From Holdemania massiliensis AP2 (GTDB lineage: Bacteria > Bacillota_I > Bacilli_A > Erysipelotrichales > Erysipelotrichaceae), in the NCBI RefSeq assembly GCF_000327285.1, contig NZ_HE998568.1:876461-940460 (forward strand): a stretch of 64,000 nt of DNA, written 5' to 3'. The notes beneath the pieces are model-generated. The model saw only the letters and a program-made list of their open reading frames with translations, was not told the origin of the DNA and searched no databases. Positions 59,962 to 64,000 of the stretch are shown here, in pieces. A program made the translations under genes and the position numbers. The first letter of the stretch is position 1. Each line of letters starts with the position of its first letter.

Positions 59962-60228
59962 TTACAACAGAATCTCTGAATCTGAATGGACATCCAGCTC
60001 CAGTTCAACAACCGTGTCTTCTAAGACAAATGGTTTTTCTTCCTGCGGCAGATAGAAGCTGTAAATGGAATCTTTCAAAGCCATCCAGTCGGCCATCTTC
60101 ATCGTCCAGATTTCATCCTCCGGTTCGACAATCCCTTTGCGGATCAGTGCGGCTAACTCACTGTCAGAGAAACTGCCGTCCTTTTTGCCGTCTTTTCGGC
60201 GTACATACCAGCGGTTATTCGTTTCCAT
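59962..60228 (-). CDS. GYF_2-domain small protein
   Basis: An 88-residue protein. Residues 4-60 match GYF_2 (DUF4339): WYVRRKDGKKDGSFSDSELAALI, then PEDEIWTMKMADWMALKDS. The domain normally binds peptides or sits beside membrane proteins. The C-terminal tail is acidic (VVELELDVHSDSEILL). Its start overlaps the upstream RCC1 gene by 14 bases, so it is probably co-translated and may be its cytoplasmic partner. It has no membrane helix. Confidence 0.8.
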   Translation of the reverse strand: METNNRWYVRRKDGKKDGSFSDSELAALIRKGIVEPEDEIWTMKMADWMALKDSIYSFYLPQEEKPFVLEDTVVELELDVHSDSEILL

Positions 60229-62314
60229 GATTTCCCTCGCTTTCCGGCTGTGAATCTCCGCCTTCCCCTTCGCCGGCCGGCGTTGTGGAAGGTTCCGTAG
60301 TTTCCGATGGGGTTGGCTCCGGCGTGAGTTCCGGCGTCGGAACCGGCGTCAATTCCGGAGTAGGTACCGGCGTCGGGGCAATATAATTGTAATTGGTGAC
60401 GGACTCCACGGAGTTCTCGTACAGCGTACTGTTGGATCCGGCAACAATCGTGATCGTCACCTGCTTGCCGTCTTCAAAAGAACTGTTCGGAAGCGTGACG
60501 GAAGTGCCGCTGACCTTTTCGTGATAGCCGCTCTGGTTAGTCACGCTGACTTCATAATAATCGGCGTTTTCCACCGCATCCCAGCTGATTCGGACATTGT
60601 TGGCATCCTGGCTGATTTTGACGTTGGCCACGGAGGCGAGGGTCACTGACGGCGTAGCGGTCGGGGCAAAGTAATTAAAGATCTGCGTTGCCGGTTCTGA
60701 CGGTTTGACGTTGTTTTCGCGTGAATTGGCAACAATACTGAATGTCACCTGTTTGCCATCCTCAAACAAATTACCGTTTAAGGATACAGAAGTCCCGTCC
60801 ACTTTGGCGGAATATTCCTTTTTCAAGGCCGCGGATACCTCATAGTAATCCGCATCCGTCACTTTATCCCAGCTGATTTTGATCTGATCTCCGTCCTGGA
60901 TAATCTTGATATTCTTCACGGCTTCCAGCTGTTTTTCTTCTTCACTGCCGCCGTTCATTTCACTTTGACCACGGCTGTTGTCGCCGGCCGCAACCAAACT
61001 GCCGTTTTTCAGTAAGCCAACGGAATGGTTCTTGCCCGCCGCAATTGCGATCACGTCTTTCCACTCCCCAACTTCCAGCCGGCCATATTCCTTGTCGCCC
61101 TCGGCACTCACTGTGCCGTCGCTGCTGAGCATCAACAGATGCTCAGATGAAGCTGCCGCCATTGTAATCTTAGACGGCGTTTTAGCCGGACAGACGCCGG
61201 TTTTGCCTTCGATGCAGTCCAGACTGCCGTTCTTAGTCAGAATTAACAGCGTATCCCCACTGATGACAACATTCTGAATATCGCTGAGCGTGGAAACGTC
61301 AGCCTGACTGCCGGCAATCAGCACTTTCCCTTCCTGGGTAATTCCAACGCTGATGTTGGCTCCGGCAGCAATTTTAGCGACATCTTTCCATTCCGACACT
61401 TCACATTGCTTATTGCTGTTGTCGCCGGTACAGACGACTGTGCCGTCCTTCTTTAAACCCAAGGTATGATGATCCCCCGCCGCAATCGCTGTGATCCCGC
61501 TCCACTCGGCGACCTCTGTCTGCTTCTGTCGGGAACTGCCGGCGGCGACAACCGTTCCGTTTTTCTTTAAGCCGACACTGTGCTGCGCTCCGGCTTTGAT
61601 CGAAGTGATATTGGCCCAGCTGCCAACGTTGATCTGACCCTCGTCATTGCTTCCCTGGCCTTTGACGGTTCCATCGGTATTCAAAACAAGGGTAAATTCA
61701 CTGCCGGCCGCAATGCGGTTCTCTGCGGTCATGATGTTGGTTACTTCCTCTTTTTTCCCACCGCCCAAGCTGTTGAAAACCAGGATGAGAAGCAGCACGA
61801 CGAGCCCCAGGCCAGCCGCTGCCCCGATCAGCTTGGTCTGATTGTTCTTTTTGGACTTCATCGCTTGCGGCTGAGGCCGATTCGCGCCGGCTCCCGCTGC
61901 CGAATGCACCTGTAATTCCGGCTCCTTAACCGCCCTCAGCGGTTTGGTTTTTTCCAAATCCTTCACAGCCGGAATCACCCGGGTCTGTCCCAGATCCGGC
62001 TGCGGCTGAATTGGCTCCTTCATGCTTATCTCCGACGTCGGATACTCTTCCTCCGTTTTTTTCATAAAGGGAATATCTAATGTTTCATGAACATCTTTCT
62101 CCGGCAGTACCGGCACCTCATTACGGATCATCTCATCCAAACTGATGTGGAAAGCGTCCGCCAGCAGAATCAAATGGTCAAGATCAGGAATCGCTCCCCC
62201 GTTTTCCCAAGCCATATAATCCAGAACCGAAACCTCGGCTTTCTCGGCCGCGGCTTGTTGAGATAAGCCGTTATATTTTCTCAGCTGTGTTAATTTCTCA
62301 GGCAGCTTATTCAT
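60215..62314 (-). CDS. XRE HTH-TM-RCC1-FN3 protein, putative transmembrane one-component regulator
   Basis: A 699-residue protein. Residues 4-60 are an XRE HTH: KLTQLRKYNGLSQQAAAEKA, and DYMAWENGGAIPDLDHLILLAD. A linker (65-160) contains basic residues just before a single membrane helix (about 162-181). Residues 200-455 form RCC1-like blades with repeats such as AGAQHSVGLKKNGTVVAAG, AGDHHTLGLKKDGTVVCTG and AGKNHSVGLLKNGSLVAAG. Two FN3-like domains follow (about 464-548 and 560-644), then a Pro/Thr-rich tail (PTPELTPVPTPELTPEPTP). Topology should be N-in, C-out. This architecture implies outside sensing coupled to DNA binding, which is inference. Confidence 0.85.
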   Translation of the reverse strand: MNKLPEKLTQLRKYNGLSQQAAAEKAEVSVLDYMAWENGGAIPDLDHLILLADAFHISLDEMIRNEVPVLPEKDVHETLDIPFMKKTEEEYPTSEISMKEPIQPQPDLGQTRVIPAVKDLEKTKPLRAVKEPELQVHSAAGAGANRPQPQAMKSKKNNQTKLIGAAAGLGLVVLLLILVFNSLGGGKKEEVTNIMTAENRIAAGSEFTLVLNTDGTVKGQGSNDEGQINVGSWANITSIKAGAQHSVGLKKNGTVVAAGSSRQKQTEVAEWSGITAIAAGDHHTLGLKKDGTVVCTGDNSNKQCEVSEWKDVAKIAAGANISVGITQEGKVLIAGSQADVSTLSDIQNVVISGDTLLILTKNGSLDCIEGKTGVCPAKTPSKITMAAASSEHLLMLSSDGTVSAEGDKEYGRLEVGEWKDVIAIAAGKNHSVGLLKNGSLVAAGDNSRGQSEMNGGSEEEKQLEAVKNIKIIQDGDQIKISWDKVTDADYYEVSAALKKEYSAKVDGTSVSLNGNLFEDGKQVTFSIVANSRENNVKPSEPATQIFNYFAPTATPSVTLASVANVKISQDANNVRISWDAVENADYYEVSVTNQSGYHEKVSGTSVTLPNSSFEDGKQVTITIVAGSNSTLYENSVESVTNYNYIAPTPVPTPELTPVPTPELTPEPTPSETTEPSTTPAGEGEGGDSQPESEGNHGNE

Positions 62315-62741
62315 AAATCAGCGCTCCTTTCTCTTCGTTTCTATAAAAAGGGTCATAAAAATCCATTAATATCATCCCTGTTTTTACGCCGATTGTCAAC
62401 CGTTGAGCCAGGCAAAGTCCAATATTCCCGTGGATTTCCAGCAATCTTTTGCCAAAGTTTCCCGCTAATCCTCGGAAAAAGTCAGCTTTGTGCTGTCGAT
62501 GGCTTTGTTTCCTTTCCCCTGCGCTTAACCTTTCTGTAGGTATCCTGCCGGCAGGCTGATCTGGATGAAGCTTTCTTGATGGGATTGATCGCTGTTTCTT
62601 CCCACTCTGTTTCAACATGAAATTTTCGCAAACAAAAAGGACATGACCGAAGTCACATCCTCGATTGAAATTCTGATCCACTTTCTGTCTGCGGACAGAC
62701 TGCCTTATCCTTTTCAATTTCAGCGGCAAGGCTAGAAAAGC
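62315..62741. other. Intergenic region with a terminator
   Basis: This 427-base gap holds the GH13 terminator (62633-62661). A 140-codon minus-strand frame (62307-62729) spans that terminator and has no recognisable motif, so I do not call it a gene. Confidence 0.6.
62633..62661 (-). terminator. Terminator of the GH13 gene with UUCG loop
   Basis: On the minus strand, AGGATGTGAC and GTCATGTCCT form a 10-pair stem with two wobbles around a TTCG tetraloop and are followed by TTTTTG. Confidence 0.85.
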
Positions 62742-64000
62742 TTATTCCGCCGAGAGATTGGAGCACACAAAGATCTGCGGCTTCCGGCTCAGCTTCAACT
62801 GACCCTTTTCGACAATCACCGGCTGATTGTCGATCAGATTGACAAATTCACCTTCCACCTTTGTTAATGGAAGTTCCCCTTCCAGACCGCGGACATTAAA
62901 GATTCCAAAAACCCGGCTGTCTTCGCATTGATATTCGCAAACCAAGACTTCCTGCGGGTTATCGTGCAGAATAAACTGCCGATGTGTACCCATGAAGTCC
63001 ATACGGCGGATTTCATTCAGACGGCGAATCAGCGCTTCATAAGCCGGATCCAGATGCGTCCAGTCGACCGGATCCTTCGTAAATAAGCTTGGCTGATGCG
63101 TATTCCAGGCTTCCTGTCCGGCATAGACAAACGCCGTGCCCTGTGCAAAGAACGAATACCCCACCCAGTTCAGGATTTTATCGTGATCCTGCGTATAACT
63201 GGCAATCCGCGGCTGATCATGATTTTCCAGAAACCGCAGCTTCAGGAAATTAGCCGGATAGCGCCACTGCTGATCACGGACAGCCTGCTTGTATGGCTGC
63301 AAAGAAGATTTTTCAGATACCGCCGCTTTGAACTGATCATAGATGTCATAATCATATAAGCAGTCAAACGCCGTATATAATTCACTGTCGGTTGCCACCT
63401 CAAAGCCTTCTGAACGCAGGGCGCGGATGAATTCCGGCTCCACGCTTTCCGCCAGCCAGAAATGATCCGGATTGATCTTCGCCACAGCTTCTGCCGCCTG
63501 CTGCCAGAACGAAACCGGCACCAGACTGGCCACGTCGCAGCGATAGCCATCAACGCCCAGCTTTGCCCAGTAACAAAGCATATTGATCATTTCCTCTCGC
63601 AAAGCCTCACAGCTATAATTCAAATCGAGGATATCGGTCCAATCCCCAACCCGGTTGCCAAAGTTGCCGTCTGGCTTATGATAATAATATTCCGGATGCG
63701 TTTGGGTAAACGGATGGTCATACGCCGTATGATTAATCACAATGTCGATCATGATCTTCATATGATGATCATGCGTTGCCTGAATCAGCAGCTTGAATTC
63801 TTCCAGCGTTCCATATTCCGGATTGATCGCCCAGTAATCTGAAATTGCATACGGACTGCCCAGATCGCCTTTGCGCTGCTGGACACCGATCGGATGAATC
63901 GGAAGCAGGTAGAGGTAATCAAACCCCATCGCGGCAATGCGGTCCAGATCCTTTTCAACCTCACGGAAAGTCCCGGATGGAGCATAATTGCGGACAAAGA
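62742..64000 (-). CDS. GH13 alpha-glucan-active glycosidase, 5' truncated by window edge
   Basis: About 420 codons are visible. The frame is open to the window edge (FVRNYAPSGTFREVEKDL precedes MGFDYLYLLP), so the true start lies beyond 64000. All GH13 motifs are present: DIVINHTAYDHPF, GYRCDVASLVP (nucleophile Asp), FWLAESVEPEF (acid/base Glu) and FLENHDQPRI. The C-terminus is a short beta domain. It hydrolyses or rearranges alpha-glucans; no signal is visible and the subfamily is uncertain. A UUCG terminator follows. Confidence 0.92.
   Translation of the reverse strand, partial: FVRNYAPSGTFREVEKDLDRIAAMGFDYLYLLPIHPIGVQQRKGDLGSPYAISDYWAINPEYGTLEEFKLLIQATHDHHMKIMIDIVINHTAYDHPFTQTHPEYYYHKPDGNFGNRVGDWTDILDLNYSCEALREEMINMLCYWAKLGVDGYRCDVASLVPVSFWQQAAEAVAKINPDHFWLAESVEPEFIRALRSEGFEVATDSELYTAFDCLYDYDIYDQFKAAVSEKSSLQPYKQAVRDQQWRYPANFLKLRFLENHDQPRIASYTQDHDKILNWVGYSFFAQGTAFVYAGQEAWNTHQPSLFTKDPVDWTHLDPAYEALIRRLNEIRRMDFMGTHRQFILHDNPQEVLVCEYQCEDSRVFGIFNVRGLEGELPLTKVEGEFVNLIDNQPVIVEKGQLKLSRKPQIFVCSNLSAE

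Follow-up and report, generated by a model that had tools for sequence, protein, structure and literature searches.

Our analysis supports a sensor or scaffold in the membrane and a partner for it in the cytoplasm, encoded by two overlapping genes near the end of the window, i.e., the 64,000-nucleotide stretch of the Holdemania massiliensis AP2 genome that was analyzed. According to our preferred reading, to which we assign a probability of roughly 0.45, the larger protein is a receptor or scaffold at the envelope with a dedicated cytoplasmic GYF adaptor, and its helix-turn-helix (HTH) domain is mainly a protein-binding module. The architecture, the predicted fold and topology, the conservation across the family, the fixed gene pairing, and the noncanonical recognition helix are computed results, and both the architecture and the gene pair are far beyond chance. 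The two open reading frames proposed by the first-pass annotation were found at its coordinates on the minus strand, with a 14-base overlap at 60215-60228. The features of the cassette are as follows.

60215..62314, minus strand: receptor gene, 699 aa, with an XRE HTH, a transmembrane (TM) segment, an RCC1 propeller, two FN3 domains, and a Pro/Thr tail (open reading frame, Pfam, AlphaFold2, orthologues).
62117..62314, minus strand: XRE-type HTH domain, aa 1-66, with the noncanonical recognition helix SVLDYMAWENG (HTH_3, pLDDT, conservation).
61841..62116, minus strand: cytoplasmic linker, aa 67-158, disordered and containing the motifs TLDIPF and LGQTRV (pLDDT mostly <50, motif counts).
61763..61840, minus strand: single TM helix, aa 159-184, predicted N-in by the positive-inside rule (hydrophobicity, AlphaFold2).
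60959..61726, minus strand: RCC1-type beta-propeller of seven blades, aa 197-452, predicted outside, with conserved Cys295/Cys304 (Pfam, AlphaFold2, structure match).
60665..60928, minus strand: FN3-like domain 1, aa 463-550 (AlphaFold2; fn3 matches in orthologues L013, L016, and L089).
60380..60637, minus strand: FN3-like domain 2, aa 560-645 (AlphaFold2; sequence repeat of FN3-like domain 1).
60218..60379, minus strand: disordered Pro/Thr-rich C-terminal tail, aa 646-699 (sequence, AlphaFold2).
59962..60228, minus strand: GYF_2 partner protein, 88 aa, without a TM segment (Pfam GYF_2, GYF fold, neighbor conservation).
62340..62399, minus strand: conserved cassette promoter block, TTGACA-17-GATGAT followed by ATTAATGGATTTTTAT (alignment of four Holdemania upstream regions, promoter scan).

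Pfam and AlphaFold2 agree with the order of domains that had been read from the sequence in the first pass. In the receptor, HTH_3 scores an E value of 3.9e-8 (33.6 bits against a curated cutoff of 23) and RCC1_2 an E value of 2.5e-43 over five stretches; PF13540 is the fitting model here, a search of the genome with PF00415 (RCC1) having returned zero matches, controls included. Pfam fn3 has no match in the 699-aa protein itself and is reached in the three orthologues listed above. The AlphaFold2 model, built with a 61-row orthologue alignment, places the HTH (aa 4-63) at a pLDDT of 93 to 97, the TM helix at aa 159-184, seven propeller blades at about aa 197-452, and two FN3-like beta-sandwiches with high confidence at aa 470-547 and 566-643, while the linker (pLDDT mostly <50) and the tail are disordered. 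Compared with solved structures, the propeller matches UVR8 with Z 30 over 257 residues, BLIP-II with Z 28, and the ectodomains of the ACR4/CR4 receptors with Z 26 to 27; BLIP-II is its closest solved relative in sequence (7.8e-15). With seven RCC1-type blades, the domain is an RCC1-like propeller, a fold that by itself shows no function; to our knowledge, Ran is not expected in bacteria.

The hydrophobic segment after the linker (mean KD >2.0) is present in 78/78 orthologues, and Lys/Arg are richer on its N side in 59 of the 78 and poorer in 2. Cys304 occurs in all 78 sequences and is accompanied by Cys295 in 74, a conserved pair that fits a disulfide outside the cell. Together, the charge bias and the cysteine pair support a topology with the HTH inside and the propeller outside, the direction of membrane insertion anticipated in the first pass. 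The outer ends of the orthologues vary and carry a second FN3, Listeria-Bacteroides repeats, or other modules.

The receptor is not unique to H. massiliensis, since about 134 of the 272 Erysipelotrichaceae genomes searched, from 13 genera, have orthologues, by a manual count of genomes scoring >230 bits with a profile made from ten orthologues; no full-length match was found outside the family among 395 genomes sampled from the class. Against the two nearest congeners, dN/dS is ∼0.07 for both the receptor and the GYF_2 genes, with synonymous sites near saturation, which indicates purifying selection on both.

The HTH ranks with the best-conserved parts of the receptor: in 78 orthologues, K7, R12, Y33, E37, and N38 never vary, and N2, P5, Q19, and M34 almost never do. 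Yet the canonical XRE recognition residues S-R-Q-A-[IV]-S-K are absent, and the consensus [DPS]-[VT]-x-[ED]-Y-M-[NSA]-[WY]-E-N-G is fixed instead in 79 sequences: compared with ∼27 ordinary XRE domains from the same and related genomes (of 30 "others," three were receptor-family members that escaped the filter), R30, Q31, S34, and K35 are replaced, and E/D32, Y33, and M34 are fixed. When the pattern [ED]YM[ANS][WY]ENG was searched across 85,000 species genomes, 70 of the 87 stretches recovered were relatives, and the recognition helix is thus close to a signature of the family. A helix both almost invariant and noncanonical implies strong constraint on the HTH for a task different from the usual SRQ-type reading of DNA. 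The first-pass annotation had pictured a sensor wired straight to DNA or to a cytoplasmic partner and had named loss of the residues needed for DNA binding as evidence against this idea; as the usual S-R-Q-x-x-S-K residues are missing and another consensus has taken their place, the DNA half of the proposal is not supported, and the partner half fits better. Judged from these residues, direct wiring of the receptor to DNA appears doubtful.

The main rival to our preferred reading is a membrane-anchored one-component transcription factor with the logic of ToxR/CadC, in which the propeller would sense and the HTH would bind a few promoters, perhaps its own. We consider it possible but less probable. 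Such a regulator would explain an XRE-type HTH that scores above the Pfam cutoff and in which S18/Q19 and N38, presumably the phosphate-contact positions by 434-repressor numbering, are kept across the orthologues; as a whole, the domain carries the same net charge as ordinary XRE domains. However, positions 30, 31, and 35, which we take to correspond to the base-contacting glutamine positions of the 434 repressor, have become V/T, L/T/A, and N/S/A, and an extra acidic residue occupies position 32 in nearly all orthologues. DNA binding is therefore weakened, though still conceivable because the phosphate contacts Q19 and N38 remain and because a related XRE-TM-RCC1 protein (L174) carries a canonical SRQ helix.

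The promoter likewise bears on both sides. The cassette has kept its own promoter, with TTGACA-17-GATGAT and the following sequence conserved among four Holdemania species as a block of ∼40 bp, although the most distant of the four receptors is only 55% identical, which speaks for the transcription-factor rival. Against this, the genome contains no second copy of the block at up to 3 mismatches, so that its use in a search for an operator or regulon recovered its own copy alone, and the upstream regions of the cassette differ wholly between genera whereas the HTH is nearly invariant. In short-linker loci such as L119, L131, L133, L139, and L148 (see below), a -10-like TTAAAAT/TTATAAT lies ∼7 bases before the start codon and the same upstream regions have no Shine-Dalgarno sequence, suggesting leaderless transcripts in this clade. 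As for the neighborhood, cysS follows the cassette in the same direction at 49 loci and gap precedes it at 17, a recurrence that identifies the cassette as an old, vertically inherited chromosomal unit. Unlike these relatives, H. massiliensis has its cassette (locus L038) next to alpha-amylase and sugar-utilization genes (62742-63998) and not in the gap-cysS neighborhood, which implies that a rearrangement moved the cassette or its neighbors.

The 88-aa partner matches Pfam GYF_2 (E value of 1.1e-9), and its predicted structure has seven solved GYF domains among its ten best matches (Z 5.7 to 7.1). The GYF domain of Myxococcus GltJ (7z3c; profile E value of 0.0016, Z 7.1) and peptide-bound Smy2 are among the folds matched. 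As to conservation of this neighbor, raised as a check in the first pass, 72 of 76 readable loci have the gene directly downstream of the receptor and on its strand (68 by the open reading frame test and four, L012, L071, L132, and L134, by tblastn), and start-stop overlaps of 1 to 17 bp are common. The loci without it (L015, L067, L068, and L087) group together on the tree. Retention in 72/76 loci is strong support for a functional unit. Stand-alone GYF genes also co-occur with the receptor within genomes. We sought GYF fusions that might serve as Rosetta stones and rejected them, the GYF_2 domains of other genera of the family belonging to unrelated zinc-ribbon/GYF/TM proteins. Indeed, in family genera without the cassette (L166-L172), GYF_2-like domains occur in one to several copies in zinc-ribbon and TM proteins, and several of these genes adjoin one for a short DUF2752-like membrane protein.

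The receptor linker offers a candidate docking site. In long linkers, an [IVL]-x-I-P-F motif (in which A/S may replace Pro) occurs together with Thr-x-Val motifs; short linkers have either D-E-I-N-I-[ED]-Y-F or no motif at all. The aromatic residues W7, Y8, F20, W41, and W48 of a putative ligand pocket are present in the 88-aa protein, and Y8 and W41 are lost in the short-linker clade: Y/F8 and W41 occur together in 43/43 long-linker loci and in 0/25 short-linker loci, where the acidic motif pairs with mostly Lys/Arg at GYF position 8. Three long-linker loci (L064, L072, and L105) keep Y8/W41 without the IPF motif. This covariation suggests that the GYF domain docks on the linker; we treat docking as a hypothesis only, because the changes in linker type and in GYF residues amount to a single event on the tree and may coincide by chance. 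In the mirror-tree analysis, GYF and HTH show a weak partial correlation (0.12), with no clear signal beyond general relatedness. Thr-x-Val motifs number 72 in the linkers against 17 in shuffled sequences (standard deviation of 4, maximum of 32 in 1,000 shuffles), a caveat being that the sequences are related, and the threonines are possible kinase targets. All 19 cassette genomes checked encode PASTA proteins, which is too general a feature to be informative. An FHA domain was rejected as the reader of these motifs: with FHA in just 7 of the 19, it is no general partner.

Two further rivals place the function elsewhere. The HTH of RodZ serves protein contact, and a RodZ-type morphogenesis scaffold, whose HTH would bind the MreB cytoskeleton while the outside part organizes wall synthesis, would account for the shared order of parts (HTH, basic juxtamembrane stretch, one TM, outside beta domain) and for a recognition helix that is not DNA-like. 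We nevertheless rejected this role as very improbable, since RodZ_C (PF13464) is missing from the receptor up to an E value of 1 and true MreB (E value of about 1e-140) is missing from four genomes that have the cassette (G005, G020, G021, and G034). Their best MreB matches (∼1e-17 to 1e-22) are frames of ∼606 to 611 aa, which we read as DnaK. RodZ_C is also weak or absent in most Erysipelotrichaceae genomes and found in few. Alternatively, the outside part alone might matter, as an adhesin or a BLIP-II-like binder of wall enzymes, the inside being a mere anchor. The sequence kinship with BLIP-II and the variable outer ends fit such a protein, but we find it unlikely, if less so than a RodZ-type role, given that few parts are conserved as well as the inside HTH and that a partner gene lacking a TM segment, for which a mere anchor would have no need, is kept at nearly all loci. 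A defense system was also considered and rejected, PADLOC giving only generic HTH matches and none for the GYF_2 protein.

Our preferred reading, a receptor or scaffold of the envelope served by a GYF adaptor, can be put as a working model in which the two genes would constitute a conserved cell-envelope unit of the Erysipelotrichaceae. Outside the cell, the RCC1 propeller and FN3 arms of the single-pass protein would bind a ligand or a partner in the wall or envelope; the HTH and the flexible linker would stay inside. The soluble GYF_2 adaptor would dock on the cytoplasmic side, most likely at the IPF-type linker motif, and pass on or regulate a signal, and the HTH would serve chiefly to bind proteins, not to read DNA in the canonical way. 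We infer where the adaptor docks, what the HTH does, and that a ligand and a signal are involved. More tentatively, and with odds well below even, the pair may represent a new class of receptor, in which an XRE HTH has turned into a protein-signaling module behind an RCC1 propeller and a GYF adaptor reads a linker motif, possibly modulated by Thr phosphorylation. The cassette, present in about half of Erysipelotrichaceae genomes, has no described function; if our reading is true, it would serve common gut and rumen bacteria (Holdemania, Solobacterium, and Bulleidia) as a family-wide unit of envelope signaling or scaffolding, would provide a natural partner for GYF_2, a bacterial domain of little-known role, and would add a further case, besides RodZ, of a membrane HTH that does not read DNA.

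Several other proteins contain some of these domains. In the H. massiliensis genome, near 851662, a 673-aa XRE protein with several hydrophobic segments (L039:1441-3462) lies beside a cell-division-like gene, and its orthologues in the congeners G002 and G003 carry the canonical SRQ helix. RCC1 repeats also occur in an OppC-type oligopeptide ABC permease, where they separate the OppC N-terminal segment from the permease core (L018:1192-3018, by Pfam), in two other OppC-type permeases seen only as matches of the receptor propeller (L032:691-2550 and L033:784-2637), in a long C-terminal run of a Ser/Thr protein kinase of genus g32 (L175:1096-3954; RCC1_2, 1.4e-71), and after a GIY-YIG-like N-terminal part in a 371-aa protein (L173:2833-3948). 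Closest in layout is L174:2143-3357 of Erysipelotrichaceae G277, which has XRE, TM, and RCC1 in one chain of 404 aa; unlike the receptor, it has a canonical VSRQTISKWE helix, no FN3, and no GYF neighbor gene, and it represents this domain combination in a form that is either separate or older.

The first-pass annotation knew of no described system of this form, and we likewise found no published description of the XRE-TM-RCC1/GYF_2 architecture in the openly licensed PMC literature. Parts of it recur in known systems. ToxR/CadC, which use winged helices, resemble the receptor in having a DNA-binding-type domain inside, one TM, and a sensor outside, and the receptor differs by its XRE domain with a noncanonical recognition helix and by its near-obligate neighbor gene. 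BLIP-II, a beta-lactamase inhibitor, shares the sequence and fold of the propeller but is a secreted single domain with no TM, HTH, or partner. The GYF_2 fold of the partner is found in Myxococcus GltJ (AgmX), as part of a larger motility protein, whereas the cassette GYF_2 proteins stand alone at 60 to 90 aa and are encoded beside the receptor. RodZ (YmfM) likewise has an inside HTH, a basic stretch, one TM, and a beta-rich outside domain; the receptor has no RodZ_C, and its cassette is kept in genomes without MreB. RodZ is known as a membrane HTH protein of the MreB system (reviewed in PMC6946637). The plant receptor kinases ACR4/CR4 (CRINKLY ectodomain) are, like the receptor, single-pass proteins with an RCC1-like seven-bladed propeller outside (7a0j and 7a0k), but they are eukaryotic, carry a kinase inside instead of an HTH, and have no GYF partner. 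Although undescribed so far, the pair is conserved in one family, and its receptor is a variant of known single-pass receptors.
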